Positions 9,590-63,377 of a stretch of DNA of 64,000 nucleotides are shown here, piece after piece. The translations under genes were made by a program, and so were the position numbers. A model generated the notes under the pieces. It was not told the DNA's origin, did not search any database, and saw only the letters and a program-made list of their open reading frames with translations. The number at the start of each line of letters is the position of its first letter. Position 1 is the stretch's first letter. The stretch is taken from the NCBI GenBank assembly GCA_947462335.1, contig OX381706.1, forward strand, positions 14,608,784 to 14,672,783, written 5' to 3'. The stretch is from Harmothoe impar. Its lineage: Eukaryota; Annelida; Polychaeta; Phyllodocida; Polynoidae.

Positions 9590-10022
9590 GGCTCAGCCTC
9601 ACAATTTTGTAACAATTGGACCGGGAGGCTAGAAAAGGTCTGCTTTTATTATTTTATTTTTTTTCCCCCATATCTCTACTATTTGTAAAAATATGTGGAT
9701 GGTTATTGCAAACACTTTGGACAGTGTAGCTCTTCAAATTCCACATTGCATAGAAAGTGAAGTCTTTGACCGGGCTGAGGAAAAAATATAACATTAAGCA
9801 TGTAAAAGGGCTACATTTAAATATAAAAAACTTCATATCAATTTCATTTCATATAGTGTGAAAATATCCTTTGACTTTTTCCACCCTTTTTTTACTATAT
9901 AGGTCTAATTTATGCTATAATAACGTTTCCCTGTCAAAGACATCACCCGGTCAAAGATGTCACCCGGTCAAAGACGCCACCCGGTCAAAGAGGATCCAAT
10001 TGTTACAAAGTCGTGAGACTGT
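9590..10022. mobile_element. MITE with GGTCAAAGACG interior (family B)
   Basis: Terminal inverted repeats are CTCACAATTTTGTAACAATT and AATTGTTACAAAGTCGTGAG. The right part contains three short direct repeats of CCGGTCAAAGA. Family members lie at 48240-48557, 51934-52196, a fragment near 46165-46245, and the MITE split by the LTR element (13548-13678 plus 26674-26832). Confidence 0.65.
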
Positions 10023-10134
10023 ACCTTATACACAAGGTAACTGAAGTAATATAAGACAGGATAAGACAGGATAAGGGCTGTTCATCCATATTAGTCAGGA
10101 GCATTTTCTGGAAAAGAGGGCTTATAAAAAGGGT

Positions 10135-10729
10135 CAAGGCATTTTTGAGTAGAATTGTTTTTAGAGTTGGATTAGGGTAATTTGGGTGTGCTGAATCCAA
10201 ATCTGCCGTATAACATTTCCTATCTTGATGTTATATGCCTGAAAAATCAAAAACAAAATGGCTACCATTTTAGGCTTTAAAACTGCAGATATGAGCAGGT
10301 ATAGTTTAGAATAGTATAGGAAAATAGGTGATATAGCCATCAAATTGAACATGCTTACTCCTCAGTGAGTCACTTTTCAAATCTGTATCATTTGATATTT
10401 GTAAATCCAAGTTGGCGGCCATTTTCCAAGATGGCCGCCCGAATCACATTTTAAAACTTGTTTGCTTCATAGAAATGGATGTAGTTGGTCAATCAGCTTG
10501 ATCTTGGTGTCAAATTCTATGTTTTCAGACCTGCTGTAGCTGATTCTAACACTTTTAATGCTTTTAGAGCAGTTATAAAGCAAGAAAATATGAATTTCAC
10601 ATCATTTCCTTGAGTATAGATAATGAGTGTTTTGTGATTCCATGCTCATCGTCTGACTATTATTCACTCTATGACACAAGGAAGACTATGGTCAGTCTCT
10701 ATCCCACCTACCCATTCCTCACTACCCAG
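10135..10729 (+). repeat. Fold-back element 1, left arm
   Basis: Inverted partner of 12596-13190. Confidence 0.8.
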
Positions 10730-12595
10730 GGAAATAGAAGTTGACATAGTTAAGCACGAAAGATTTTGCAACAGGGGGCTGTGTTCTAACCCAAAACTAA
10801 GCGTATCAAATGGACACATCTTTACATTAGAAACTGGGAAATGTAATAATGACAAGAAGCAGATGGAGAGATACCTGACTCATTATATCAGTCAAAGATC
10901 ATCATTCGAAGTCAAAGTCCATAATCTTACAGCAGATGTGTATGAGCTCCATGTCCTAGATAGAATAGCAGATAAGGAAAGGGAACATTTCTAGTGCTAA
11001 AACAGTGGCGAAGGAGAAGGGGGGGCCAGGGGTGTTGTGTGATATCCTTTGATGCAGTCATAATCATTTCAGTCAGTATGGTTTATTTTGGTATTAGGTC
11101 TAAGGGATTGCTGCATGAATATGTGTAGTCATTTTAGCAGGAAGAAGCTGAAATAGCTCTTTGGTCACCTTCTCCTCGCGAACAACTGCCAGACCTTGAA
11201 GAGCTGCCTACCTTTATTAGGAGCCGGGGGTACATGTGTATCTTAATGAATAGCGGCCTTAGCTCCTAAATGCACCAGCACAAAATATACAGATGTGATA
11301 TGAATACAAATAGACAGTGCCCTAAAGCTGCTCAATCCTGATACTGGAGCAATTTCTATGGAAACATTAGTAGCTGATTGATTTGTACATCCATGTGATC
11401 CACCTAGTAAAGTCAGCATGGAGTGGTTAACTGAACCAGGGAGCCTTACCCCCATAAACTGTCAGCACAGGCAAAGGACACTTTTAGCATAGTGGTACAT
11501 TGCCAATACACTTGGTCAGGCATGAAGCAACCTGGACAACCATCCAACCAGCAATGAACAAGACAATCTGAACGAAGGCTAGAGCAAGTAAAGCCCGAAA
11601 TCACATTCCATGCAATACAGTCTTAGAGATCTGGAGTCTTGAACCTAATGAAATACTGTTCTTGATGTTGTTCCATGCTATTATAGGGACTAATACCACT
11701 AATTTCCTGGCAGGTCACCCAACAGCATAGAAAGACTTTGTGCAAAACCACAAGGTTCAGAATGTTTCTAGTAGCAATCTTTGACAAAACTGACCAACTG
11801 TAATATAATTATAATGGTGAAACTAGAGCTCTCCTGTTCATTTAAGGCATAGGCAAAGAGCTCCCGCATCCAACCAGAAATGCTTTCAAACTATGCTTCA
11901 TGGACACTAACCTTTAGTCCATTATATATGGCAGATGTCAATGGAAAGTTTATAAAACCACTAGCAAACCAATATTCTATAGTATTCTCCAAGAGTCTGT
12001 CAGATTTGATATTTGACCAATGTTTGCCTGCATTCATTGCAGATGGTCAAGGTCTGACTGTACAATACTAAAGGTAACTAAAATGAGAGACACAAATCAA
12101 CTACATCTATTTCTGTGAGCATGGACATGAACCTTTATACGCATGTCACATGTTTAATGTGCCTACATTATTAATTGATTAATCCTTTTATCTGATTTTT
12201 TTTTAAACTGGGATAAAAAATGAATCTGGTGCAGAGTGTGGTGAGGGGTGGGGAGGTCAGAGTGGAGGTTGACCATAGTCTTACTAATGTGAGTGAGTGA
12301 GGGTAAGAGTAAGAAGCTGAGGATAAAATCACAAAACTCTTATTATCTACACTTAAGTCTACCATGGTCATAATATAAAGCACACATCCTTCTGCTCTAT
12401 ACTAACTCTAAAAGCACTATAAGTGTTAGAATCATCTTCAGCAGTTCTTAAAACATGGAATTTGACACCAAGATTAAGCTGATTGACCAACTACAGCTGT
12501 TTCCCTGAGAAATGTTGTGTAACAGTATGAAAAGGGAAGAACAAGGGTGAGGGGCACAGACCAGGGATCCATTGTAACAGGTGTATCGGAGGGTA

Positions 12596-13190
12596 ACGGG
12601 TAGTGAGGAATGGGTAGGTGGGGTAGAGACTGACCATAGTCTTCCTAGTGTCATAGAGTGGGTAATAGTCAGACGATGAGCATGGAATCACAAAACACTC
12701 ATTATCTATGCTCAAGGAAATGATGTGAAATTCATATTTTCTTGCTTTATAACTGCTCTAAAAGCATTAAAAGTGTTAGAATCAGCTACAGCAGGTCTGA
12801 AGACATAGAATTTGACACCAAGATCAAGCTGATTGACCAACTACATCCATTTCTATGAAGCAAACAAGTTTTATAATGTGATTCGGGTGGCCATCTTGGA
12901 AAATGGCCGCCAACTTGGATTTACAAATATCAAATGATACAGATATGAAAGGTGACTCACTGAGGAGTAAGCATGTTCAATTTGATGGCTATATCACCTA
13001 TTTTCCTATACTATTCTAAACTATACCTGCTCATATCTGTAGTTTTTAAGCCTAAAATGGTAGCCATTTTGTTTTTGATTTTTCAGGCATATAACATCAA
13101 GATAGGAAATGTTATACGGCAGATTTGGATTTAGCACACCCAAATTACCCTAATCCAACTCTAAAAACAATTCTACTCAAAAATGCCTTA
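12596..13190 (-). repeat. Fold-back element 1, right arm
   Basis: Inverted partner of 10135-10729. Confidence 0.8.
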
Positions 13191-13547
13191 ACAACTTTGA
13201 TTTCCTGAAAGTTGGCCCTGACTATAATGCCCTTCTCTATGCAGCTATCAAATTTAATTTAAAAAAAAGTTAGCTTCAAGTTACTTCAAGCTGCTGAATG
13301 CTTAAATTGTTTTTAAATGCTTAAAGCTGTTGAACAAAGGCCATTTATCAACTTTAATTCCTGCTTAAAGTTGCTTAAATCGAATTCAAAGCTCCAAGCT
13401 ATAAAGATCTTGGATTAGATATGGAAATGCTGAAACACAAAGTAGCTGTAAATTTAAGATAGGCATCATGCAATTGGGAACTAGGCTATGTAGGGGCCAG
13501 TGTCTGTACTGGAGAAACTGAAGTCATAGACAAAGTGGTAGACATGA

Positions 13548-13678
13548 GGCTGTGTCTCACGACCTTGGGACAATGAGCTTGGCTTGATAAGGTCAAAATA
13601 CTAGCAGCAGGAGGCTAATTATAATTATAACTATGATTATATAACAACCGCCATAACGTTTTTCCAAATCCTTATATA
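13548..13678. mobile_element. Left half of a MITE split by the LTR element
   Basis: It starts GGCTGTGTCTCACGACCTTG. The matching inverted end, AAGGTCCTGAGACACAGCC, is at about 26813-26832 on the far side of the retrotransposon. The ATATA ending this half is repeated directly after the 3' LTR. Confidence 0.7.
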
Positions 13679-13871
13679 TGTAGGGGCATGATATTACATA
13701 TTAATCTCATACACGGTATTTCCGGGTAACGTCTGTTTACTCGGCCTCTCCACCTGGAGCTAGTGCACACAGTTCCCGGGAGAGGGCGCAGGTCCTCTTC
13801 AGGTAACCGTGTGCCGCTCTCAGGTGGGCGGCCGACCCACCCACCTGGCCACGTGATCTGAGAGCCGGTGT

Positions 13872-13910
13872 TATATAAGACCCATGTGTTTACCTGGAAC
13901 GGCAGTCAGT
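13872..13910 (+). promoter_or_regulatory. LTR core promoter (TATA box and initiator)
   Basis: TATATAAG at 13872-13879 is followed 36 bp on by GTCAGT (A at 13908), a good initiator match. This predicts the start of the genomic RNA near 13908. The same TATA octamer occurs in the internal promoter at 21353. Confidence 0.7.
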
Positions 13911-14081
13911 GCAGGCCCGACTGACGAGAGACTTCACATGTCCAACCGTGCGGACAGAGTTGTATGCTAAGAGTTGCATACTGACCGTTTCCTCTATTTA
14001 TAGAGAAACCTGATTTACCTGTGTGTATTAATTCTACACTGATCGTTCCCCAGTAAAGAAACTAGAGTTGTTATTCTTGTG

Positions 14082-14087
14082 AATAAA
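14082..14087 (+). terminator. LTR poly(A) signal AATAAA
   Basis: AATAAA lies in the 5' LTR, and the functional copy lies at 26592-26597 in the 3' LTR. It is about 75 bp from the LTR end, leaving room for R-U5. Confidence 0.6.
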
Positions 14088-14115
14088 GACAGATATATTC
14101 TCGCACCTGGAAACT

Positions 14116-14126
14116 GCCGTGATCGT
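14116..14126 (+). other. LTR segment identical to the 5' end of tRNA-His
   Basis: GCCGTGATCGT equals the first 11 nt of animal cytoplasmic tRNA-His as I know it. The first seven bases recur in the primer-binding site, so this is a second place where the primer's acceptor strand could pair. The 3' LTR copy is at 26626-26636. Confidence 0.4.
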
Positions 14127-14163
14127 TGTTCTTTAACCTAGAGTTAACTACGAACCACCACAC

Positions 14164-14176
14164 TGGTGCCGTGACC
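14164..14176 (+). promoter_or_regulatory. Primer-binding site, tRNA-His type
   Basis: TGGTGCCGTGAC directly follows the LTR and is complementary to the 3' end of tRNA-His (acceptor UCACGGC, discriminator A, CCA). Twelve bases match before the first mismatch. Confidence 0.7.
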
Positions 14177-14281
14177 AGTAGCAGTGAAGGTAGCAGAACA
14201 AGTTAATTGTTCGGGAATATGTTCGGGTTATACTGAACAGGAAGTCCTTGGGTGGACAGACAGTCCTTTAGTGGACAGACA

Positions 14282-16822
14282 ATGGCTACCGGTGGTAGCC
14301 TGGGCGGCTCTGGCCCAGAGCTGAGTGAAGGGGAGTTGGAATCAACTCGCCTGGAGGTGCCAGGGATGGACCCTGGGGAGGGCTTGAAGCCAGAACAGAA
14401 GAAGAGGAAATTGCAGGATCTTTCCTGGGTGGAACCCTATGTAGGGGATGAGAGATTCCAGAGGGAATATGACGAGCGTTTGGCTCGGGAAGAGGATGAC
14501 CTCTACTGGGAGAATGTCCGATTGGACAAGCAGTCAATGGAAGATCAGTATGCTGCATTGACTGAGGAATTGACATCCCTGGTAAAAGAAAGGGACGAGA
14601 TCCTCTCTGAGAATCAGAGGGTAAAAGGAACTCTGATAGAAGAGAGAGAACGGTTGATAGAAGACAACCGGTATATGAAAAAGAAGGTTGCTCAGGAATC
14701 GCATGAATACCAAAAGATTCAAGCAAAGATTGCTGAGAACCAGAAGGAGAATGAACACTCCAAATCTCTTAAGGAGAGGTATGAGAGGGATTTAAAAAAA
14801 TACTCTAGAGAATGGTATGCCCTGAAGAGGGGGACAGAAGAGCTCGAGAAGGGCAGAGACCAGTTGGTCAAGGATAACGAATCCACCAGGATACAAATCC
14901 TGGAAGAAACGGAGGAGTTAGAAAGGAAACGGAAAGCTGAAGTGGAGGCTGTCTGTTCCCTGGAAGCCAGGAAAACTCTCCTGCGGAGTGAATTGTCGAA
15001 GGCAACGGAACAGCAGGGGGGGGAACAAGTTCCAGCTATCGGGCCGGAAACTGTTCTGGACAGCACTCTTGCTGCTAGGCAAGTAGATGCATTACCTCAA
15101 TTCGATCCATTTATTAATGATAATGGATTGAGGAATGTGGAGGACTCTGTGTATAAAAACAGAGGGAAGGATTCAAAGAGAGTGAATATCATCGGGCGCT
15201 CTCTTGAACGGGAACCAGTTAATCATGCCAGTATTGGGCAGGTTAACAGGGAAATGTCTCCAGAGGAGGAAGTGTCTCGACATTATAAAAATAAATTCCG
15301 AGATGAAGTCGTGAACCATAGTTATGGCTCATTGAACCCCTTTTCGGGGGATGATCCGGCTCAGTATGGAAACCCGGGAGATTATGATAGCAAGGGTAAT
15401 TATAGATATTGCCCGGATACAACTTATTCATATCCACCTCCGGCCACTGATACACATTCGGGAGTCAATAAGGACCCTGAAAATAGCCGGAGGGGTAGTC
15501 TGAATAAGGGGTCACAGCAGAAAACGAAGGGAAGGTCAAATCCAGTGCATAAAAACACTCAGGGATTGTCCGGTTATCAAGGCCCACGCTTTGATGAGGG
15601 TACAGACTCGGAATCAGATAAATCTTCTGACGATATACCCAAGATAAAGGTTCCTTTGAACCGAAGGGTAACAATGACCCCGGCGGAACACCGATTACAT
15701 AATCGAGACCCAGCCATAGGTAATTTGGGACTAGATTGCTCCAGCCGAGGTCAAGACGGTACAGACTTACTGGCTTGGAGTAGACGCATGTCGGGTCAAT
15801 TAGTGCATTCTAATTATGCTGCTAAAAGAACTGCACGCGTGACTAAGCCTTACAGGGGTTTACGACCCTGGAAGGAAGAATATCAATCACTTTTAGATGA
15901 TTGTAAGTACAATTGCTGGAACAAGGAGGAATCCTTGGGAGCTTTTGTGATATGGTTGAGTGACGGCCCGGGTAAGATAGTGGTTGAAGAATGGAGGGAC
16001 ACTTACGGGCCGGAAGCTACATACGACCAGCTGGAAGTATTAGCTTGTTATACCTTTGGGAAAATGGTGACAGTAGATCACTGGACTCTGTTTCAGAGAA
16101 GAACGCAGAAACCTAAGGAATCTGCTAAAATTTTTGGGCTAGAATTGCAGCGATTATTGCGGCAGGCTAGGCCAGAATGGAGTAGGGATGCTGAATATTA
16201 CATAGAATCCCTATTTGTAAGATTTATTAGTGGATTGAGTGATCCCGAACATGCTAAAGTTTGTGGTAGAGCTTGGGAAGCTGGGTCTTCCCTAGCAGAT
16301 TTGTTCATGGCGATTGATCAACATGACAAGAAGAAGATACTGTTGGCTGGTATGATACCCGCTAGTAGGGGGCAGCGCGTCTCTGGAATTGAACATTCCT
16401 TAGATGGAGACGATTCTTCCGCGGAAGAATCTGAAGGGGAGGAGAGAGTAGACGCCCTGAAATTCAAGGGTCGACAGAAATCTAGCTCAACCCCAGCTTC
16501 CGGGAAGCTTCCCAGTAACAAAGGTTATTCGGAAACCCCCCGGAAACCCGACATCCGGGAGCCTCAGACTGAACCCAGTCAGAAAACCCAGACCCCGGAG
16601 ACGACCACTCCGGATAAAACAAATGCGTCAGGAAACTCATTAAATACCTTAATGGAGTCCATGATTAAACGCATGAACGAGGTGTTTGATAATCAAACCA
16701 GGCGCCGCCCTAGGGTCGATCGTAACACTGTCCAGTGTTACAGATGTCAAGTCAAAGGGCACTTTGCATCTGAATGCAAAGCAGAGAAACCTGTTTTAAG
16801 AAGTGAGGTTTCGGGAAATTAG
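14282..16822 (+). CDS. gag: Gag polyprotein of the Ty3/gypsy element
   Basis: 846 aa from the first ATG (14282); the open frame upstream to 14252 has no ATG. In order: an acidic N-terminus, a long charged coiled coil (about residues 90-250, rich in E, K and R with few Pro), a Ser/Asn/Pro-rich disordered region, a globular capsid-like helical domain (about 500-690, with PWKEEYQSLLDDCKYNCW), another low-complexity stretch, and one CCHC zinc knuckle CYRCQVKGHFASEC (residues 819-832) typical of nucleocapsid. It forms the particle and packages element RNA. It is about twice the usual Ty3 Gag, owing to the coiled coil and linkers. It ends at TAG 16820-16822 inside a frameshift signal. Confidence 0.9.
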   Translation: MATGGSLGGSGPELSEGELESTRLEVPGMDPGEGLKPEQKKRKLQDLSWVEPYVGDERFQREYDERLAREEDDLYWENVRLDKQSMEDQYAALTEELTSLVKERDEILSENQRVKGTLIEERERLIEDNRYMKKKVAQESHEYQKIQAKIAENQKENEHSKSLKERYERDLKKYSREWYALKRGTEELEKGRDQLVKDNESTRIQILEETEELERKRKAEVEAVCSLEARKTLLRSELSKATEQQGGEQVPAIGPETVLDSTLAARQVDALPQFDPFINDNGLRNVEDSVYKNRGKDSKRVNIIGRSLEREPVNHASIGQVNREMSPEEEVSRHYKNKFRDEVVNHSYGSLNPFSGDDPAQYGNPGDYDSKGNYRYCPDTTYSYPPPATDTHSGVNKDPENSRRGSLNKGSQQKTKGRSNPVHKNTQGLSGYQGPRFDEGTDSESDKSSDDIPKIKVPLNRRVTMTPAEHRLHNRDPAIGNLGLDCSSRGQDGTDLLAWSRRMSGQLVHSNYAAKRTARVTKPYRGLRPWKEEYQSLLDDCKYNCWNKEESLGAFVIWLSDGPGKIVVEEWRDTYGPEATYDQLEVLACYTFGKMVTVDHWTLFQRRTQKPKESAKIFGLELQRLLRQARPEWSRDAEYYIESLFVRFISGLSDPEHAKVCGRAWEAGSSLADLFMAIDQHDKKKILLAGMIPASRGQRVSGIEHSLDGDDSSAEESEGEERVDALKFKGRQKSSSTPASGKLPSNKGYSETPRKPDIREPQTEPSQKTQTPETTTPDKTNASGNSLNTLMESMIKRMNEVFDNQTRRRPRVDRNTVQCYRCQVKGHFASECKAEKPVLRSEVSGN

Positions 16823-19800
16823 AGGGGGTTACCGGGGATGGCAGGACGGTAACCCCTGAGGAAATATGTCAGATTATCACCGACGTTGGCGGTGAAGATT
16901 CATTAGCAGTGAATGCGTCCAGCAAGAAGGGAGATGGGACCGTACATCCCGGAAACCATGAGGCTGGGGAGACTGGTACAACAGGCGCCCAGGGGTGCGC
17001 GTATGGGAAACCTAGTGCCAGTTTAGAGGAGTCAATAACCAAAGAGTTGGTTAAGGTTGGAGGAACCAGGCTTCCCCCGGGTCATCCTTGTCTGGAACAC
17101 CTGAAAGGATGTGGGTTCGACCTGGGCACTGATAGTGACCTTCACCGGTTTACTAGGAATCCCTCAGTAACTGATGGGAAGAGGTGGTACGTTTCCTGTT
17201 CTGTACAAGGAAAGACTGGGGATTTTCTTATGGATACTGGAGCTAGCCACTCCATGGTCTCTAAGAGATTCATCAGCTTATTGCCGAATATGTGTGAGAA
17301 CCTCACAATGAGGGTAAACGCATGTACGGCCGATGGTACCAGAATGAGGACATTTGGACGGACTTTTCTGATAATCTCTGTGGCCGGGAAAGAATTTGTT
17401 TGGGCCCCGACCATAGCTGAGATTGAAGATGATGGTATTCTTGGTTTGGATTTTGCGGCGCTTTTCGGTGCGACTTTGAATCCGAAAAGTTGGAAGTTGA
17501 AAATTGAATACCCGTATGATATGACCATACTCTGTAAGTTGAGAGTGATAAGTAGTGTCGCTAGTGTGGCACAGACTGTGAAGATTCCCCCGGGAATGAC
17601 CTGTGACGTGTTAGTCAGTTCAGGGAGGCTAATCCAGAAAGGATTAGCGGTAATCGAGCCGGATATGGCTGTATTATCCCGGAAGGGATTGGAATCTGCG
17701 GATACCCTAGTAGGGAATTCCAGATGGACAGTGACACCCATTTCCAACCCCGGAAACTCCACAGTATATCTTGAGAAAGGCACTGAAGTTGGGAAAGTGA
17801 TACTTGCGGAGGCAGTCACCGGTAGCCACCAAGACCTGAGGTTAGAAGAAGGAGGGGAAGAGGAATTGCATGAAGAGTTAACTAAGTTGTTAACAGGATC
17901 GTCCATAACGGATGAGAATGATCAGGAAGCCCTAAAGGCTATGCTGAAGAGATGCAGGCAAGCTTTTGCGGCCCCAGGGGAACCCCTGGGGAGAACCAAT
18001 AAGGTATTGCATGAAATTAAAACCGGGGATAACCCCGCTTTTAAGATTCCTTATAGGAGATTACCCCTCAAGAAGAAGATTGTAGCTGAGGAAGAGATAG
18101 CGAAAATGCTGAAGGATAATGTTATTGTTCCCAGCATGAGTCCTTGGTCCTCCCCTGTGTGTATGGTAACCAAGAAGGATGGTAGCATACGGTTCTGTAT
18201 TGATTACCGGAAACTGAATGGGTTGACTAAAAAGAACTCCTATCCTCTTCCTAGGATAGATGAGACGATTGATTCCCTGGGAGGGAATGAATGGTTTTGT
18301 ACCCTGGATTTACAGTCCGGGTATTGGCAAGTAGGCATGAAGCCTGAGGATATGGAGAAAACTGCGTTCTCCAGCCATATCGGGTTGTTTGAATATAAGG
18401 TAATGCCGTTCGGGTTATGTAACGCGCCGGCCACCTTTGAAGCCATGATGGAGACACTGTTAAGTGATTTATTATGGCGGAAATGTCTAGTTTACTTGGA
18501 TGACGTAATTGTGTTTGGAAAGACCTTTGCGGATTGTTTAAGTAATTTAGAGGAAGTCTTAAACCGAATCATGTCTAATGGTCTCAAATTGAAACCAAAG
18601 AAATGCAATCTGTTTAAGAAGGATATTAACTACCTAGGGCGGATTATTTCCACCGAGGGGGTTAAGGCGGATCCGGAAAAGATCAGGAGTGTGACTGAAT
18701 GGGAAGTCCCCAGGGGTCCTAAAGATGTGCGATCCTTTCTAGGATTCTGCTCATACTATAGGGATTTCCTGCCGGGGTATTCCCGGGTAGCCTATCCGAT
18801 CCAGTGTTTGTCACACTGGACACCCGGAAATAGGAAGGAAGAGTTCCCATGGGGGAGGGAACAGGACACAGCTTTCTTAGCAATAAAAAAGTTGTTTGTA
18901 GAGACCCCGGTGTTAAAGTATCCCACCCCGGATGGTCATTTTGTATTGGATACAGATGCTAGTAATGAGAGTATTGGGGCCGCCCTCAGTCAAGTCCAAA
19001 ACGGAGTGGAGGTTCCCATTGCCTTTGCTAGTAATACTATGAGTAAGACCCAGCGTAATTATTGCACCACTAAAAGGGAATTGTTGGCTGTGATAGTTTA
19101 TACTAAAAAGTTCAAACATTTCCTTTGGGGGTCAGATTTTACGCTAAGAACAGATCATTCCTCTTTGAGATGGTTATTGAATTTCAAAGATGCGGAAGGA
19201 ATGATTGGCCGTTGGCTAGCACACCTTTCCGAGTTCGGTTTGGAGCAAAGTCAGATCCAGCATAGAGCTGGGGTAAAGCATGTGAATGCTGATGCACTTT
19301 CCCGACGTCCTATCAGGAAGTGCGAGAACACCAACTGTGATGACTGTGGTCAGCATGAGGCTGTCATAGCCGGAACAAGGATTCCCTTTGAGATCAAGGG
19401 AACTGGGGCTCTGGAGTGGTCCATGGGAACCATCCGGAAATTCCAGGAAAAGGATCCTAACCTTAGCCGGTTGTTGGTATTGTTACCTAGGAAGATACGG
19501 CCCCCGCGGCCTGAGATTTCCCTGGAGAATCGGGAAATGAGACGACTAATAGCTCAATGGGCAGAGCTAGAGGTCCAGAGCGGAATCGTCTACCGGTGGA
19601 AGATTAATTCATCCGGTAGGAGAGTCCGGCAAGTGGTAATCCCCTCCGGTATGCGGAGGGATGTTATGTATTATTGCCATGGACACCTGACCAGTGGACA
19701 TTTCGGGAAAAAGCGTTCCCTGGAACGTCTGAAAAGGAGATATTACTGGCCAGGGATGAGTAGTGATCTATTAAGATGGATTGCTACTTGCCCGGATTGT

Positions 19801-21030
19801 TGTAAAAACAAACCTGGGCCTGGGATGGGTAAAATGCCTTTGTCCCAGGAGTTGTTTGGTGTAAGATTTGCGCGAGTCGCCATAGATATTATCAGTGGGT
19901 TTAAAACTACCCCTGAGGGTAATACTTGTATGATGGTCGTCACTGACTATTATACTAAGTATACGAGAGTGTTTCCATTAGCGGATCACAAAGCAGCAAC
20001 CTGTGCAAAAGCTTTTGTTAAAGGTTGGGTATTGCATCTTGGGGTTCCCCTAATGATGCATAGTGACCAAGGTCGGGAATTTGAATCTGATCTTTGGCAG
20101 GAAATGTGTCACCGACTGGCGATTTGTAAAACAAGAACAAATCCCTATCGGCCACAAAGTGATGGAATGGTTGAGAGATTCAATCGTACATTGATTCAGG
20201 TGTTGAAATCCCTGGTGAATGATAAAATGGATGACTGGGATGAGCAGTGTGATTATGTATGCCATGCATATAATAGCACTGTCCATTCTAGTACTTCCTG
20301 TTCCCCGAATCTGTTAGTTTTCGGGGAAGATTTAATAATGCCCGCTGATCTGGTATTTGGGGTGGTTGGAATGAACCCGGAAACCCCCTGCCATGTGATG
20401 TTTGTGGAGTCATTAAGAGATCAATTCAAATATGCTTATGAATTGGTCAGAACTGAATTACAGAAGAATGCCACCTGGCAGAAAACCGGCTATGATCTAG
20501 GCCTCAGGCCGCGACGGTTCAAAGTCGGTGATCAAGTGGTAAGATTGCATGAGCCGTTATCGACTCTGAAACTTGCTAGCAATTGGGACGGGCCCTTTGT
20601 GGTTACCCGGATAGTAAGTGAGAGTACTGTAGTGATCCGTTCATTACAGGGGAAGATGTATAAATCTAATGTAGCTCGACTAAGAGAATGGAAGGGGAGA
20701 GATTTGTCCCTGGACTCGTATGAGTTGGAAGTTGATACTTTGATAGAGGAAAGTGAACAGCGGAAATTAGTGAAGGAACCTCCCCGGAAACGCGGGAGGC
20801 CGCGGAAGGAGGTTTCCCGGAAACTAATGGTGCAAAGGCCCGTCATCCCAAAAAGATCCGGGAAGAAGGCGGCTAATAAAGTCTCGCCGGCTGAAGGGAA
20901 AAGGACCCGGAAGAGTGTGGTTAAGGCTAAATCCACTCTGGAAAAGGCGTGTCCTGGAACCAGGTCTAATGTTATGCCTAAAAACATAAGACGCAGTCCC
21001 CGGTTACTAGCTAGGGACGGTATAACCTAA
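16807..21030 (+). CDS. pol: Pol polyprotein (protease, RT, RNase H, integrase)
   Basis: The -1 frame is open from 16807 and is entered by frameshifting near 16819, not by its own ATG. Aspartic protease: LMDTGASHSM with Asp at 17233, and GILGLDFA. Reverse transcriptase: RFCIDYRKLN, MPFGLCNAPATF, and catalytic YLDDV at 18493-18507. RNase H: LDTDASNESIGAAL near 18945. Integrase: HHCC finger (GHLTSGH to CPDCC, about 19680-19800), catalytic Asp 19885, Asp 20065 and Glu 20173, giving D-x59-D-x35-E, then the GPF module (NWDGPFVV). The tail has an AT-hook-like RKRGRPRKE at 20785-20811 and a very basic end rather than a chromodomain. It matures and copies the RNA and integrates the cDNA. All catalytic residues are present. 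Confidence 0.95.
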   Translation, partial: GFGKLEGVTGDGRTVTPEEICQIITDVGGEDSLAVNASSKKGDGTVHPGNHEAGETGTTGAQGCAYGKPSASLEESITKELVKVGGTRLPPGHPCLEHLKGCGFDLGTDSDLHRFTRNPSVTDGKRWYVSCSVQGKTGDFLMDTGASHSMVSKRFISLLPNMCENLTMRVNACTADGTRMRTFGRTFLIISVAGKEFVWAPTIAEIEDDGILGLDFAALFGATLNPKSWKLKIEYPYDMTILCKLRVISSVASVAQTVKIPPGMTCDVLVSSGRLIQKGLAVIEPDMAVLSRKGLESADTLVGNSRWTVTPISNPGNSTVYLEKGTEVGKVILAEAVTGSHQDLRLEEGGEEELHEELTKLLTGSSITDENDQEALKAMLKRCRQAFAAPGEPLGRTNKVLHEIKTGDNPAFKIPYRRLPLKKKIVAEEEIAKMLKDNVIVPSMSPWSSPVCMVTKKDGSIRFCIDYRKLNGLTKKNSYPLPRIDETIDSLGGNEWFCTLDLQSGYWQVGMKPEDMEKTAFSSHIGLFEYKVMPFGLCNAPATFEAMMETLLSDLLWRKCLVYLDDVIVFGKTFADCLSNLEEVLNRIMSNGLKLKPKKCNLFKKDINYLGRIISTEGVKADPEKIRSVTEWEVPRGPKDVRSFLGFCSYYRDFLPGYSRVAYPIQCLSHWTPGNRKEEFPWGREQDTAFLAIKKLFVETPVLKYPTPDGHFVLDTDASNESIGAALSQVQNGVEVPIAFASNTMSKTQRNYCTTKRELLAVIVYTKKFKHFLWGSDFTLRTDHSSLRWLLNFKDAEGMIGRWLAHLSEFGLEQSQIQHRAGVKHVNADALSRRPIRKCENTNCDDCGQHEAVIAGTRIPFEIKGTGALEWSMGTIRKFQEKDPNLSRLLVLLPRKIRPPRPEISLENREMRRLIAQWAELEVQSGIVYRWKINSSGRRVRQVVIPSGMRRDVMYYCHGHLTSGHFGKKRSLERLKRRYYWPGMSSDLLRWIATCPDCCKNKPGPGMGKMPLSQELFGVRFARVAIDIISGFKTTPEGNTCMMVVTDYYTKYTRVFPLADHKAATCAKAFVKGWVLHLGVPLMMHSDQGREFESDLWQEMCHRLAICKTRTNPYRPQSDGMVERFNRTLIQVLKSLVNDKMDDWDEQCDYVCHAYNSTVHSSTSCSPNLLVFGEDLIMPADLVFGVVGMNPETPCHVMFVESLRDQFKYAYELVRTELQKNATWQKTGYDLGLRPRRFKVGDQVVRLHEPLSTLKLASNWDGPFVVTRIVSESTVVIRSLQGKMYKSNVARLREWKGRDLSLDSYELEVDTLIEESEQRKLVKEPPRKRGRPRKEVSRKLMVQRPVIPKRSGKKAANKVSPAEGKRTRKSVVKAKSTLEKACPGTRSNVMPKNIRRSPRLLARDGIT
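16813..16856 (+). promoter_or_regulatory. -1 ribosomal frameshift signal between gag and pol
   Basis: The heptamer GGGAAAT (16813-16819) fits X XXY YYZ in the gag frame (G GGA AAT) and is directly followed by the gag stop TAG. Five bases later, GGGGTTACCG (16825-16834) pairs perfectly with CGGTAACCCC (16847-16856), a 10-bp stem with a 12-nt loop. The pol frame is -1 to gag and is open from 16807, so slippage here gives Gag-Pol. Confidence 0.85.
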
Positions 21031-21329
21031 GCCGGTACACAACGAGTGTGGTGTCCTGTAATCTTGTTAAATATTTTAATGTTGTAATCAGTTATGTGTG
21101 GAAGTAAGTACGGTCGGAATGATCGTGATAGTCCCCCTGTCAAGGATCCCATGGGTGATGGACGGATAATCCGGTGAATGTGCTTTATTATGCCATTCAT
21201 ATATATTTCATTGATACTCTCGACGAGTTGACAGAGCGTAAGGATTAACACGTGGAATGAGGGTACCTGTTTACAATTGAAAGCGTGGTGACCTGGTTCC
21301 AAGGAACTGGGTCACGGGACACGCGGGGT
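21031..21329 (+). other. Non-coding gap after pol
   Basis: About 300 bp without an open frame on the + strand. GC content rises towards the predicted internal promoter at 21330. Confidence 0.5.
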
Positions 21330-21416
21330 TGCGCATGCGCGGTGGCGCGCCTTATATAAGGCCCGCGGAGTGGCGGGAATCGCCAGTTGGGGTTGAGAGG
21401 CGGTCCAGAGCAGACG
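21330..21416 (+). promoter_or_regulatory. Predicted internal promoter for ORF3/ORF4
   Basis: TGCGCATGCGCG (21330-21341) is a perfect NRF1-type palindrome. Twelve bp later, TATATAAG (21353-21360) is the same octamer as the LTR TATA box. CGCCAGTT places an initiator A at 21385, 32 bp after the TATA start, and AGACG (21412-21416) lies exactly at +28 to +32, matching the DPE consensus RGWYV. The first ATG downstream is that of ORF3 (21508). The stacking of motifs is seen; activity is inferred. Confidence 0.6.
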
Positions 21417-21507
21417 TGAGAGCTCGGACACGACCATTGTCGCTGTGGGGAGGTGGATCCCCTATAAATCCATCAACAAACACTTTTCTTGAGTGTGACA
21501 CAAAAAC

Positions 21508-24117
21508 ATGTCTTCCGAGACAGACCACCAACAGGTGGACCCTCTTCAAGAGGGCGACTCCGCTAGCGGAGGAAATGTGGTTGTTAATCAACCTGACCTC
21601 GTGGACCAGGAATCTATAGATTTCCTGGGACAAGAGGGGATAATGGACGTCGACGCTGACTCTCAGTCACCGCTACGCCCTGCTAATGTCCCCGCCAATT
21701 ACTTGGAAGGGCTAGACATTGAGGCCATCAGCCCTGCTGACGGTCACGCTGATACCGGTGAAGCTGAGTATCAGGATCCGGGTCCATTGTACCATGGAGA
21801 ACCGCCGGCGGACGTTGAAAAACCCCGCCCGGCAGTACCAACACTAGGAGGCTTCATGTCCAATTACGATGGACGTGAAGTAGAACTGCACGAGGACGTG
21901 CTAAGACTCAAGGCGGAGGGAGCTCCCCGCCGGATAGACCCGCTCACAAGGCAGGCGATATTGCTCTTCCTGTTAGTGGAGGAGCAGGAGGACATGCCCC
22001 CGGACTGGTTTGTGTACTGGGAGGCACTCCAGAAAGGACTACGCGTATGCTACTGCTTACGGCGAGCTGTCTTCGATTTACATATCGCAGACATAAAGCG
22101 GTTAATGCCCACACTCCCAATTCTGTCTCTGGACCCGAATTGTGGAGTTGCCGGGATGTTGTTGACTGGAGTCAACAGGTACCGGGCACGAATCGGGAAA
22201 CTCCGAGAACCGAAAACCCGGAAGGAGTACGAGATTGCTGCCGCTAATACGCAGGGGGTAGTTTCGTACATCCTGGATGTAGCCACTATTGAAGACTACA
22301 TGGATACTCACAACATCAAACGAGATATTGCCATATCTTGTTTGGTTGACGAGGCGGTTTGTACAGTGCGAACCAGATCTTCCAGTGCGGAGGAGAAGGC
22401 GCGAATAAAAGCGCTGAAAGCCACACCTAGGGGGCGCGGCAGTAAAGGTGAGAGGGGGGCCTCAAACCGGTCGAGCTCGGCCGACAGTAACCAGTCGGAC
22501 GAGTTTGTCCAGGAGAGAGGACGTCAGGCTCGCCGGAACGAGAAGGCAAGATTAGCTAACTTGCCGGACTCTGTGTTAGCAGAGGGATTACCGGAACAAC
22601 CTTCCGGAGGACAGCCCGTTATTCCCCGGGCTGAGGAGGAGACGGATGAGGCTATGGACATAAACGAAGCCAATACTCCGGCGCCCTCCAGCACAGACAC
22701 CACCACCCCCACCCCGGCCCTTGTGGCAGATATGACCGCCGCCGCGGGAGCAGCGGCCGCCGTGGCGGCTGCGCTGGTATTCAATCCAGCACGTCTCAGC
22801 CCTCTCCGTAGTCCGGCTCATTCGGATGCGGAAGAGGGGGAGGTTCCGGCTAACGCTGAGGAACCAGGAAATGCCCCAGAGGACCCCATCCCGCCTAATG
22901 ACGTGATGAGGCGGATCTGGCAGAACGCGAACAATAAGTTCCGCGTGTTCATTCCCAATTCCTGGGAACAGTGTCCAATTGGTCCTACCAATTTCGGATG
23001 TCCACCCTCGACCAATTGTAAAGGTCAGAGTGACGACGAGGATTGGATCCGGAATACCCCCCGGGACCGTCCTCCGTCTGCTTTTTATCAGCAGTGGCTA
23101 GATCAACTCAGGATCCTGCCGGATACTTACTATAGTAAGGAGCAGAAGGAAAAGCTTCTTTTTGCGAGTAACCGCTGGTATAGCCAACGGGAAAGAAACT
23201 GGTGCCCATTCGCTACGTGTGTAAACACGATTGGCACAGACAGAACCGTGTTTGTAACAAAACAACGGTTTCTGCGACACCTATGTGAAAATCACATGCA
23301 CCACTGTGTGGTGTACCACTGTGATATCACAGTAGGTAGGGAGTCCCAGCTTTGTAACGGGTGTTTAGAACCCCGGAGAGGTGAGCTCATGCGCCACATG
23401 AAAGATTGCCATAATATGGGAATCAGTGTAGCTCGCAATCGTGTGAATGCGCTACATGATGCCGTATGTGACCAGTACAAGTCACTCACGGAGGAACAGA
23501 AGGCTAAGATCCGGCCGGCAACTCCCTTCTACTGCGAGGTCGCAGATGGGAAGTTCAAAGCCAGGATTGCCAGAGTGGACGGACGACATAAGTTCGCCAT
23601 GAATGACGAGGAATATACGGTGTTATGCACTACCCGTACTTCCCGCAGAGGTGGCGGTAGTTTCCGTCAGCCGGAAACCCGGGGTAGTTCCCGGGGGAAG
23701 AGCCGGTCCACCCGCGACCGCTCTCGATCTCCTGCGGTCTCACCCGGACCAAAACGGAGACATGCCGGATCCACTTTGGAGGAACTCGATAATTCCTACT
23801 ATGGGATTTATCATGCCCCGGAAGGTCGCGACTATTTTCGCGAGTATCCAGACCCGCTGTTTACAGACCGGAAAGATCGGAAACGTGATTCCGGTGGTCA
23901 AGCGGCGGCGGCTACTAACATGGAATACCGTTCTAGACGTCTGAGCAGTTCAGACAGTGCCAACAGTCAACCTGACTGTGGAGGTGCCCGGCCTAAAGAA
24001 CCGGCTACCAGAACAAAGGCTTCCCTGCCTTTGACGTACCATCTGGGGACAACTGCAAAGCTAACCCCCAGGGACGTCCGGTCACCCACTACCCAACTCG
24101 GGACATGCAGGGCTTGA
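21508..24117 (+). CDS. ORF3: accessory protein with C2H2-like zinc fingers and an Arg/Ser segment
   Basis: 869 aa from ATG 21508, the first ATG after the predicted internal start. An acidic N-terminus (about 1-110) is followed by a globular helical domain (about 120-300, including PPDWFVYWEALQKGLR). Next come Ser-rich and Thr/Pro-rich linkers and an Ala run (AAAGAAAAVAAA), then a Cys/His domain at about 566-640 with CPFATC, RHLCENH, CNGC and RHMKDCH, arranged like two irregular C2H2 fingers. Last is an Arg/Ser-rich part (RGSSRGKSRSTRDRSRS) with KRR clusters. There is no signal peptide or membrane segment, so it is not an envelope. Nucleic-acid binding is likely; the exact role (second nucleocapsid, transcription factor or RNA export factor) is unknown. 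I do not recognise the family. Confidence 0.85.
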   Translation: MSSETDHQQVDPLQEGDSASGGNVVVNQPDLVDQESIDFLGQEGIMDVDADSQSPLRPANVPANYLEGLDIEAISPADGHADTGEAEYQDPGPLYHGEPPADVEKPRPAVPTLGGFMSNYDGREVELHEDVLRLKAEGAPRRIDPLTRQAILLFLLVEEQEDMPPDWFVYWEALQKGLRVCYCLRRAVFDLHIADIKRLMPTLPILSLDPNCGVAGMLLTGVNRYRARIGKLREPKTRKEYEIAAANTQGVVSYILDVATIEDYMDTHNIKRDIAISCLVDEAVCTVRTRSSSAEEKARIKALKATPRGRGSKGERGASNRSSSADSNQSDEFVQERGRQARRNEKARLANLPDSVLAEGLPEQPSGGQPVIPRAEEETDEAMDINEANTPAPSSTDTTTPTPALVADMTAAAGAAAAVAAALVFNPARLSPLRSPAHSDAEEGEVPANAEEPGNAPEDPIPPNDVMRRIWQNANNKFRVFIPNSWEQCPIGPTNFGCPPSTNCKGQSDDEDWIRNTPRDRPPSAFYQQWLDQLRILPDTYYSKEQKEKLLFASNRWYSQRERNWCPFATCVNTIGTDRTVFVTKQRFLRHLCENHMHHCVVYHCDITVGRESQLCNGCLEPRRGELMRHMKDCHNMGISVARNRVNALHDAVCDQYKSLTEEQKAKIRPATPFYCEVADGKFKARIARVDGRHKFAMNDEEYTVLCTTRTSRRGGGSFRQPETRGSSRGKSRSTRDRSRSPAVSPGPKRRHAGSTLEELDNSYYGIYHAPEGRDYFREYPDPLFTDRKDRKRDSGGQAAAATNMEYRSRRLSSSDSANSQPDCGGARPKEPATRTKASLPLTYHLGTTAKLTPRDVRSPTTQLGTCRA

Positions 24118-24725
24118 CCGTGAAAGCTGAACCAAAATCACTAATCTCAGTGGTAACGCCTCGGGGCATAACTGTCCCGAAGGCTGCAGCGGTTGCGAAA
24201 GCGCCGCAAGCGGATGTTAAACCCGTGATTCCTGCAGCCCAGGAGCCGGTTGTCATCCAGCCAGTCGCGGGTACCTCCCGCACGGAAACTACCGGTGGCG
24301 TAAAATTAAAATACGTCCCGATAGTCAACTACTTCTCTCGGGAGGAGAAAGCGAGCTGCGAAGTGGGACAGAGAATTGTAACGGAATTCCAGGAGTCCCA
24401 ACGCGAGCTGGCGGTGGAATATAACACCAAGATGTTAGGCCTGTTCACGCATGGCCTAAAGATTGCCCACAGGGAGGAGAAAGCATTGGTCGCTGTCGGC
24501 AATGCTGACTACTTGGCTAAAAAGTCAAGGGAAGCTGCTTCAGGCCAAAAGACTGCTGAGGCCGCCGCAGGGTTCGTTCGTCAAGAGAACGAGAAGTTAA
24601 CCAAACGGTTACAAGACATGAACGTAAAATTTTACGGGGTGTTCGGCGTGAGTCTCGATACCTGGGATGGCACAGCTGAGCACACGCTTGCTTTAATTAG
24701 GGCAAGAGATGAACCTTTAGGTTAA
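24105..24725 (+). CDS. ORF4: small helical accessory protein
   Basis: 206 aa. The ATG (24105) lies 13 nt before the end of the ORF3 stop, in the -1 frame, and this frame is open back to 23997, so either reinitiation or a -1 shift could express it. The N-terminal 70 residues are Ala/Pro/Val-rich and probably disordered. Residues about 75-175 are charged and helical (REEKASCEVGQRIVTEFQ, then ENEKLTKRLQDM), coiled-coil-like. No motif I recognise and no membrane segment. I see no canonical X XXY YYZ heptamer in the overlap, so coupled reinitiation is the simpler guess. Confidence 0.7.
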   Translation: MQGLTVKAEPKSLISVVTPRGITVPKAAAVAKAPQADVKPVIPAAQEPVVIQPVAGTSRTETTGGVKLKYVPIVNYFSREEKASCEVGQRIVTEFQESQRELAVEYNTKMLGLFTHGLKIAHREEKALVAVGNADYLAKKSREAASGQKTAEAAAGFVRQENEKLTKRLQDMNVKFYGVFGVSLDTWDGTAEHTLALIRARDEPLG

Positions 24726-26188
24726 AAGACTAACAGAAGGTTCTGAGTCTATTTCTAATTTTTTTAGGAATAGAGGAGGAAACTATAATAGTTTCCGGAT
24801 AGATTAATTGTTCTTTCAGTTAATCTGACGTCATAAATTGTTTATGACGGGGTTTCCCTTCTGAAGGAAGGGGCATCTTTTTAGATGCATATGGATCAAC
24901 GCGGGGGGAACCTTCCGTGGAAGCTCTGGACTTACCTAACTACTCAACTCTCAACTATAGCCTACCGATGGGGAATCAGGACTCCACCGGGAAGCTACCA
25001 AACTAACGTCCCTGAAATTAACTTTTGGGATACGTTACCATGATGTGTTCCTGATACTATTATGCTGAGTTATAAACTGTTCCCGTCCAAAGGATTACGT
25101 GTCAAACAGACAATGCTCGTGGTTCCAGTTCTACTTATATATTTCATGAACATTCCTGGAGCTAGGATTACGTGTTAAACGGACAGTACTCGTGGTTTCC
25201 AGCCGGATTATAGTTATATATGTCATGAACTTTACTGGAGCGAGGACGGGATACTTATCGAGCTGTATACATATGAACTTACCTTCGGGTGATATTTATC
25301 CAAGAAACAGTATTAAGAAGAGGAGAGCACCTCACTCATTCATCTATTAGAAGCGGAGAGCACCTTGACCACAACTAGATCACCAGTAAGCTATATTTAA
25401 TTGTAAGGGTTTCCGGGTACACTGCCAGGTTACTCATTAAAACGTTTTTAATATATAAAATATATCATTATTATGTGATACATATCACCTCAGGTGTTCC
25501 AATAAGGTGTTCTCATACTTACCTTATGAATCGAGTTTCATAATATGCTATATATGAAGATTATATGATCTGATAAGCTAGGAAACGTGGCTACCCGTAA
25601 TGTTTATATGAAGTCGTTAAGACTATGTGTATATGCTAAGTATACCGCATGGTATTGTCGTGTGTGTTGACTCTGTTGTATGTTGCGAGAGATATTAATA
25701 CTCCGGTTATATAATCGGATTACCCGGCTTAAAACAAAGGCTGTGGTTACTGTTATCCATTGTGTGAATGTTTTCATTAAATCACAAATCAATGTAAGAC
25801 GCTGGTGGTTGTGAGTCCTTATCAGGACTGGTTTTTAATAACTTTTCTGTTCAACTTAAATATATAAACACACCCCACGCGCATTTTTTTTAACCGAGTA
25901 AGGTAACTTCATAGGGAAGTCATATCGAAATGTGTCAAGCCGTTCGATTGTATGTATGATATTATATTCACATGTCATAAATCATCCATTATGGTTGCTA
26001 TTACAGTGTAATGCCATATTTATATTGAGTTTTATGATCTCGCTTGTGTAGTATGTCGTAATAATATGTTTACGCCCCTAGTTACTGTATAGACAATAAC
26101 TGTAAAGTCGTTGGTCTGAAGTGTTTTCTATATACTAGGAAAACCGTATATATATTCGTTACCACCTAGTTTTGTCTAGGGGGGGTAG
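24726..26188 (+). other. Non-coding 3' region of the LTR element with a tandem repeat and PPT
   Basis: 1.46 kb without a substantial + strand ORF. Two diverged tandem units of about 72 nt start at 25091 and 25163 (each with AGGATTACGTGT, then CTCGTGGTTTCC-like and ATATATTTCATGAAC-like blocks). A shorter pair of GGAGAGCACCT motifs lies near 25320-25365. The G-tract AGGGGGGGTAG (26178-26188) abutting the 3' LTR is the polypurine tract that primes plus-strand DNA. Confidence 0.6.
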
Positions 26189-26673
26189 TGTAGGGGCATG
26201 ATATTACATATTAATCTCATACACGGTATTTCCGGGTAACGTCTGTTTACTCGGCCTCTCCACCTGGAGCTAGTGCACACAGTTCCCGGGAGAGGGCGCA
26301 GGTCCTCTTCAGGTAACCGTGTGCCGCTCTCAGGTGGGCGGCCGACCCACCCACCTGGCCACGTGATCTAAGAGCCGGTGTTATATAAGACCCATGTGTT
26401 TACCTGGAACGGCAGTCAGTGCAGGCCCGACTGACGAGAGACTTCACATGTCCAACCGTGCGGACAGAGTTGTATGCTAAGAGTTGTATACTGACCGTTT
26501 CCTCTATTTATAGAGAAACCTGATTTACCTGTGTGTATTAATTCTACACTGATCGTTCCCCAGTAAAGGAACTAGAGTTGTTATTCTTGTGAATAAAGAC
26601 AGATATATTCTCGCACCTGGAAACTGCCGTGATCGTTGTTCTTTAACCTAGAGTTAACTACGAACCACCACAC
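26189..26673 (+). repeat. 3' LTR
   Basis: 485 bp, three substitutions from the 5' LTR. Followed directly by the ATATA target duplication. Confidence 0.95.
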
Positions 26674-26832
26674 ATATATGAGTATAATTCTTTTTAAAAC
26701 ACCTTTTTCTGACACCTGGTCAGAGGCGGCAGCCGGTCAGAGACGGCAGCCGGTCAGAGACGGCAGCCAGTCAGAGACGGCACCCGATCAGAGACAAAAA
26801 CATTGTCCCAAGGTCCTGAGACACAGCCATAG
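26674..26832. mobile_element. Right half of the MITE split by the LTR element
   Basis: Contains four direct repeats of GGTCAGAGACGGCAGCC and then the inverted end AAGGTCCTGAGACACAGCC, which pairs with 13548-13576. Confidence 0.7.

Positions 26833-42240: not shown

Positions 42241-63377
<21,137 letters not shown>

Follow-up and report, generated by a model that had tools for sequence, protein, structure and literature searches.

The window analysed in this study is a stretch of 64,000 nucleotides (nt) from the polychaete Harmothoe impar (contig OX381706.1, positions 14,608,784 to 14,672,783, forward strand), and it carries, at 13679-26673, a young long terminal repeat (LTR) retrotransposon of the Ty3/gypsy type. 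Two LTRs of 485 bp each, which differ at 3 positions, enclose gag, pol, a third open reading frame (ORF3) that is separated from pol by a gap of 477 nt, and a further frame annotated as 'ORF4' (Table 1). The gap contains a stack of core promoter motifs upstream of ORF3. Judged from the arrangement and the conservation of these motifs, positions 21330-21416 probably form a dedicated RNA polymerase II (Pol II) core promoter for ORF3 inside the retrotransposon.

The stack consists of an NRF1-type palindrome, a TATA box, an initiator (Inr) and a sequence resembling a downstream promoter element (DPE). Motifs were defined for NRF1, the initiator (BBCABW) and the DPE, and scores were obtained with TBP and splice matrices. 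An earlier sequence-only reading of this DNA had listed the palindrome, TATATAAG, an initiator 32 nt on, AGACG at +28 to +32 and the ATG of ORF3 as the first one downstream, and all of these are present where it placed them. It had also equated the internal TATA box with that of the LTR, and TATATAAG indeed recurs at 13872-13879, while the LTR start that it put at 13908 has to be corrected, as a spacing of 32 nt leads to the CA at A13904. TATATAAG by itself is not rare (11 occurrences in the window versus 3.7 expected). The exact NRF1 motif YGCGCAYGCGCR occurs once in the 64 kb and was absent from 60 shuffled windows and 400 shuffled elements. On both strands of the window, eight pairs of a TATA box (score at least 9) and BBCABW were detected, two of them with a DPE at +28, and the pair at 21353 is the sole TATA, Inr and DPE combination that is also accompanied by NRF1. 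The 530 nt beginning at 21031 were dinucleotide-shuffled 5000 times; TATA plus Inr appeared in 33 of the shuffles, the DPE in addition in one, and exact NRF1 in none. Because the definition of the stack is post hoc, conservation is a better test than rarity. No NRF1 site was found within the 100 nt before the LTR TATA box, where the best candidate has 5 mismatches. An origin of the internal promoter as a duplicated piece of the LTR was considered as well and is not supported, since the common part comprises only TTATATAAG-CCC and the local score was reached in 68 of 300 shuffles.

Conservation was analysed in the host genome (1.51 Gb, 736 contigs). Twenty further host copies had first been chosen as good promoter matches; relying on promoter-picked copies alone would be circular, and therefore the genome was searched with the protein P0001 (1096 aa), the one ORF3 relative found in protein searches in which 7991 and 7985 candidates were scored (44% over 98%). 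ORF3 is present in many copies in the host genome, with 614 and 6127 first-look candidates; in the P0001 search, 42 of the 6127 candidates were scored, with 49-52% identity, 35 of the 42 being free of stop codons, and the DNA 5' of ORF3 could be taken at 40 of the 42 places. Exact YGCGCAYGCGCR was present in 37 of these 40 copies, and each of the 37 has a TATA-type word whose distance from the NRF1 start is 23 nt; either TATATAAG or TATAAAAG stands at this distance in 36 of 40. A BBCABW initiator and, at +28 from it, a DPE were likewise found together in 36 of 40, the initiator standing 31-33 nt from the start of the TATA box. The complete stack of NRF1, TATA, Inr and DPE is kept in 35 of the 40 copies located via the ORF3 protein, so that core promoter motifs lie 5' of the 3' ORF and are conserved among copies, as expected of an element with an internal promoter (a foamy-like mode of expression); decay of the motifs in most intact copies, which the sequence-only reading had named as evidence to the contrary, did not occur among these 40. 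In three of the exceptions (L080, L092 and L093) the upstream region is truncated or rearranged.

For a comparison by column, 36 loci and the window were aligned (37 rows); L069, L080, L092 and L093 were dropped, although L069 keeps the stack. Within 21330-21416, 4 of 31 motif columns are variable versus 28 of 56 other columns (Fisher p 0.0004, without correction for relatedness). Of the four variable motif columns, three still respect the motif (R at 21341, TATAAAAG and BBCABW). None of the five DPE columns varies, 15 of the 21 columns of the spacer between TATA and Inr do, as do 39 of the 85 columns of the leader after the DPE.

The DNA between the stack and ORF3 is depleted of start codons. 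In the window, no ATG was found between 21338 and the ORF3 ATG at 21508. Between +1 and the ORF3 ATG, each of the 34 alignable copies has a leader free of ATG (dropped here, besides the four non-alignable copies, were L059 and L095), and the preceding 354 nt hold 8.9 ATGs on average. When the gap of the window was shuffled 3000 times, an ATG-free end of 170 nt arose in 15 cases and one of 123 nt in 65; shuffling of the ATG-free tracts alone left them ATG-free in 27 of 2000 (170 nt) and 139 of 2000 (123 nt). An in-frame stop lies four codons 5' of the ORF3 ATG, and ORF3 therefore needs its own start. The lack of ATGs suggests that either the 5' end of the RNA encoding ORF3 or a splice acceptor lies inside the ATG-free tract.

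ORF3 is a coding gene that is constrained as a protein. Among 19 copies and the window (L048, a short match, was dropped), pairwise differences at codon positions 1, 2 and 3 were 0.91, 0.92 and 3.24%. A single frame of 1064-1072 aa from the same ATG is found in 14 of the 20 other, promoter-picked host copies, and a fifteenth, L046, has an open frame of 1072; the remaining five break earlier. 'ORF4' as a separate gene was rejected, as it matches the C-terminal tail of the ORF3 homolog P0001 and most other copies have it in the frame of ORF3. With ORF3 intact in most other copies, the split thus looks like a break of this copy. The protein has a Cys/His core, zinc-finger-like by eye, and an arginine/serine (RS)-rich stretch. 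Comparison of ORF3 with Pfam gave no domain and comparison with the PDB nothing convincing (best E 0.24), the AlphaFold model of the core was unusable (predicted local distance difference test score, pLDDT, 38.8), and scans of viral_contigs with ORF3, pol and alignments returned no relatives. No membrane segment was detected in ORF3: the top 19-residue Kyte-Doolittle mean is 1.76, in an alanine-rich stretch, and the N-terminus is polar. By these tests, ORF3 is not an envelope, and its product is probably a nucleic-acid-binding accessory protein.

Table 1. Features of the retrotransposon and of the candidate ORF3 promoter (window coordinates).
Feature	Position	Strand	Remarks
Target-site duplication ATATA, 5 bp	left 13674..13678, right 26674..26678		read directly, copies match
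5' LTR, 485 bp	13679..14163	+	482/485 identical to 26189-26673
LTR TATA box TATATAAG	13872..13879	+	score 9.3; CA initiator A13904, 32 nt on
Primer binding site TGGTGCCGTGA	14164..14174	+	identical in relative L001
gag ORF, 846 aa	14282..16822	+	CCHC zinc knuckle
pol from first ATG	17230..21030	+	frame open from 16807; protease, reverse transcriptase, RNase H, integrase
Non-coding block 1, 15-mer CGGTACACAACGAGT	21033..21047	+	exact in L001; exact in 33/40 host copies
NRF1-type palindrome TGCGCATGCGCG	21330..21341	+	-55 to -44 from putative start
Internal TATA box TATATAAG	21353..21360	+	score 12.2 versus 9.3 of the LTR
Initiator GCCAGT	21382..21387	+	putative +1 = A21385, 32 nt after T of TATA
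Putative ATG-free 5' leader of ORF3 mRNA	21385..21507	+	123 nt
Block 2, 12-mer TGAGAGGCGGTC	21394..21405	+	+10 to +21; exact match in L001 (6833)
DPE-like AGACG	21412..21416	+	+28 to +32
ORF3	21508..24117	+	869 aa in this copy
'ORF4'	24105..24725	+	C-terminal part of ORF3, other frame in this copy
3' LTR	26189..26673	+

Pfam matches in pol follow the order RVP_2 (1-84), RVT_1 (314-471), RNase H (541-669), H2C2 (804-862) and rve (885-975), the RVP_2 match of 19.1 bits lying under its cut-off of 20.3. The order protease, reverse transcriptase, RNase H and integrase, together with the LTRs, the target-site duplication and a primer binding site adjoining the 5' LTR, agrees with a place of the element in Ty3/gypsy (Metaviridae). 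In a similarity search with pol, the top match reached 86% (P0002) and many matches on ENA contigs were at 50-80%; the highest match that carries a eukaryote's name was at 44% (Cordylochernes), and one 53% match is named as a Calditrichaeota metagenome-assembled genome (MAG). Directly 5' of the gag stop TAG lies the slippery heptamer GGGAAAT (window 16813-16822 with the TAG), of the -1 frameshift type, and the -1 frame, which is that of pol, is open from 16807 on, so that gag-pol expression looks like ordinary -1 frameshifting. Just 5' of the element, a 604-nt inverted repeat with 97% complementarity (10124-10727 / 12598-13201) is possibly another mobile element. Related units of 16-17 nt (GGTCAAAGACG-like) form short tandem arrays at 9929-9991, 26718-26795, 46171-46218, 48273-48334 and 48462-48524, one of them beginning 45 nt 3' of the 3' LTR. 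A 330-aa ORF at 50982-51974 is covered for about half by 15-nt tandem repeats.

A deep relative, L001, is an element of eukaryotic type in a contig binned to a Calditrichota MAG and was assembled as a circle with a 91-nt end overlap. It is one of 11 LTR-retroelement-like contigs in bacterial or archaeal MAGs; three of these, L001 (1-13374), L003 and L009, have identical ends (91, 120 and 99 nt), as though the assembler had circularised repeats. Its gene order is that of the window: gag, pol (51%), a gap of 666 nt and an ORF3 of 1051 aa, which resembles P0001 and the ORF3 of the window over the Cys/His core (blastp 2e-5 and 4e-4 in single comparisons; hhalign probability 27%). Both gaps have the exact 15-mer CGGTACACAACGAGT (6328-6342 in L001) and the exact 12-mer TGAGAGGCGGTC in common, in the same order; in shuffles, pairs of window gap and L001 gap shared at least 13 nt in 0 of 300 cases and at least 12 in 4 of 300. 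No common stretch above 10 nt was found between the LTRs and 3' regions of the window and L001, and the leaders have the primer binding site in common. Of the two blocks, the 15-mer points more firmly to an old cis-element, because it is exact in 33 of 40 host copies versus 9 of 40 for the 12-mer. CGGTACACAACGAGT followed by A, C or T has one occurrence in the host genome, in an ordinary copy of 92-97%, and the 15-mer is present in 14 contigs of viral_contigs. The last 276 nt of the L001 gap are free of ATG, as they were in 91 of 3000 shuffles. A TATA-like TACAAAAA, the second-best TATA score of that gap, precedes the 12-mer by 42 nt (versus 41 nt in the window); its homology to the TATA box of the window is suggestive, a hint only, as the flanks have no extended similarity and the 12-mer varies among host copies. 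By eye, a TTCG loop flanked by a perfect inverted repeat of 7 bp was noticed just after the 12-mer in the ORF3 leader of L001 (6846-6863).

Several observations weigh against a promoter at 21330-21416. The copies are related by descent and hence not independent: 36 of 40 are 89-99% identical to the window 5' of ORF3, most of them 95-99%. With only 42 of 6127 candidates scored, the sample also favours well-kept ORF3. When the motif pattern was slid over the gap, its conservation was not significant, as 51 of 375 placements were at least as conserved by diversity and 86 of 375 by variable sites; this is because the 5' part of the gap (21048-21320) also varies little. L059 lacks Inr and DPE and L079 carries TACATAAG, yet both match ORF3 without a stop. 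The 12-mer TGAGAGGCGGTC shared with L001 is weakly constrained, being exact in only 9 of the 40 host copies, with one mismatch in 25 and at least three in 6. L001 itself has no TATAWAAR, and it has a single exact NRF1 palindrome, which is situated within the beginning of ORF3 (27-38 nt 3' of the first base of the ATG); such a position fits an upstream activator poorly, and the site was not counted as support. As L001 does not have the same TATA/NRF1 stack, the stack is documented only for the host family and its subfamilies, and the promoter may be lineage-specific. The youth of the copies and the slid pattern would also fit a stack that arose by chance or is a relic promoter, conserved merely because the copies are young. 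However, the spacers between TATA and Inr and after the DPE vary strongly in the very copies that keep the motifs, and we consider such an origin highly improbable.

Alternatively, ORF3 might be expressed by splicing, from a subgenomic RNA that starts at the LTR, with the stack being coincidental or minor. The third ORF of the insect errantiviruses (gypsy, ZAM), an envelope, is described as expressed by splicing (PMC12992720), and the ATG-free tract would equally suit an acceptor inside it. L001 fits this mode, and here counts against the promoter as well, with a strong leader donor (GAGGTGAGT at 11755, 11.5) and fair gap acceptors of 6.0 ending at 6828, 5 nt before the 12-mer, and 6.5 ending at 6868. 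In the window, however, donors in 13904-14400 are only weak (best 4.4 of 12.7) and no acceptor scoring at least 2 was detected in 21338-21507; better donors, inside gag and pol (9.0 at 15972), leave splicing some chance. Over the 170 nt that follow NRF1 in the 37 copies carrying it, the best acceptor had a median of 3.0 and a maximum of 5.8 of 19.5. With no such acceptor in the tract and weak donors in the LTR leader, a start site is the simpler choice, and splicing would leave conserved NRF1, TATA, Inr and DPE motifs at near-fixed spacing unexplained; it thus appears unlikely as the route to ORF3. Translation of ORF3 from the genomic RNA by reinitiation, an internal ribosome entry site (IRES) or leaky scanning, with the gap holding RNA signals for packaging or an IRES, is less likely still and has a very small chance of being correct: CGGTACACAACGAGT and TGAGAGGCGGTC, exact in L001, could be RNA elements, but gag, pol and nine ATGs of the gap precede ORF3, and an RNA element would not explain NRF1 and TATA at core-promoter spacing.

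The sequence evolution of the locus therefore best supports the claim of the sequence-only reading that a second, internal promoter serves ORF3; its extension to several 'late ORFs' falls away, since 'ORF4' is the tail of ORF3. According to this model, transcription would start near A21385, directed by NRF1 at about -50, by TBP on the TATA box, and by the Inr and the DPE. The resulting RNA would begin with the 123-nt ATG-free leader, be translated into ORF3 from the ATG at 21508 and end at the 3' LTR, and the LTR promoter would supply the genomic RNA for gag and, by -1 frameshifting, gag-pol. ORF3 would thereby be decoupled from gag-pol and linked to the host factor NRF1. In human cells, NRF1 sites 5' of the transcription start site were described to activate and downstream sites to repress (PMC11269187). 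By analogy, the NRF1 of the host may act as human NRF1 does.

Internal expression signals are known from other LTR elements. The Ty1i product of yeast Ty1 is a Gag fragment. It is encoded by an internal transcript of this LTR retrotransposon and is described as an inhibitor of Ty1 mobility (PMC5834202); the window resembles Ty1i in that an LTR retrotransposon would have an internal transcript for a separate protein, whereas Ty1 belongs to Ty1/copia and the promoter proposed here would serve a distinct ORF after pol. In foamy viruses (Spumaretrovirinae), a TATA box inside the element, 5' of the 3' genes, is described as an internal promoter besides the LTR promoter (PMC6669660). The foamy virus promoter sits towards the 3' end of env and serves retroviral accessory genes; the putative promoter of the window stands 3' of pol and 5' of a non-env ORF3, within an element of the Ty3/gypsy type, and comprises an NRF1 site and a DPE. 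No env-like ORF was found in the window, and its promoter stack stands in the gap after pol, which sets it apart from Spumaretrovirinae. For the ENV-like ORF of Sirevirus (plant Ty1/copia), CpG-rich, motif-bearing DNA on the 5' side was reported, and an internal promoter was proposed and, by that account, not conclusively identified (PMC2829016). Motif-bearing DNA 5' of a third ORF is common to both cases, in another superfamily and other hosts. With the insect errantiviruses the window shares a third ORF after pol in a Ty3/gypsy element, but its ORF3 has a polar start and no membrane segment, and thus not the signal-peptide and transmembrane features of an envelope glycoprotein. The view that this is an undescribed two-promoter design is weakened by the foamy virus promoter, Ty1i and the Sirevirus proposal as these sources describe them (PMC6669660, PMC5834202, PMC2829016). 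A limited search of the open-licence literature, by titles and the openings of abstracts, yielded no announcement of a promoter for a post-pol ORF in Ty3/gypsy. An internal promoter in an LTR element is a known idea, of which an ORF3 promoter in a Ty3/gypsy-type element would be a new form.

It is tempting to speculate that a whole Ty3/gypsy-type lineage has two independent transcription units and combines LTR-driven gag-pol with an NRF1/TATA-driven, conserved and probably nuclear ORF3, zinc-finger-like and RS-rich, that perhaps regulates the element in trans, its dosage being set not by the LTR but by a host programme that NRF1 reads; this wider picture is tentative, and the chances are somewhat against it. 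In L001, which keeps ORF3 and the two blocks of the gap, the roles of promoter and splicing may be reversed. If this is true, the clade would serve as a natural experiment on the way in which a third ORF comes to be expressed separately. If RNA confirmed the ORF3 promoter of the window, the element would be a concrete example of internal-promoter expression, a mode suggested for the env of Sirevirus but not demonstrated there, with tractable cis-elements (NRF1, TATA, Inr and DPE) and an orphan protein family to study.

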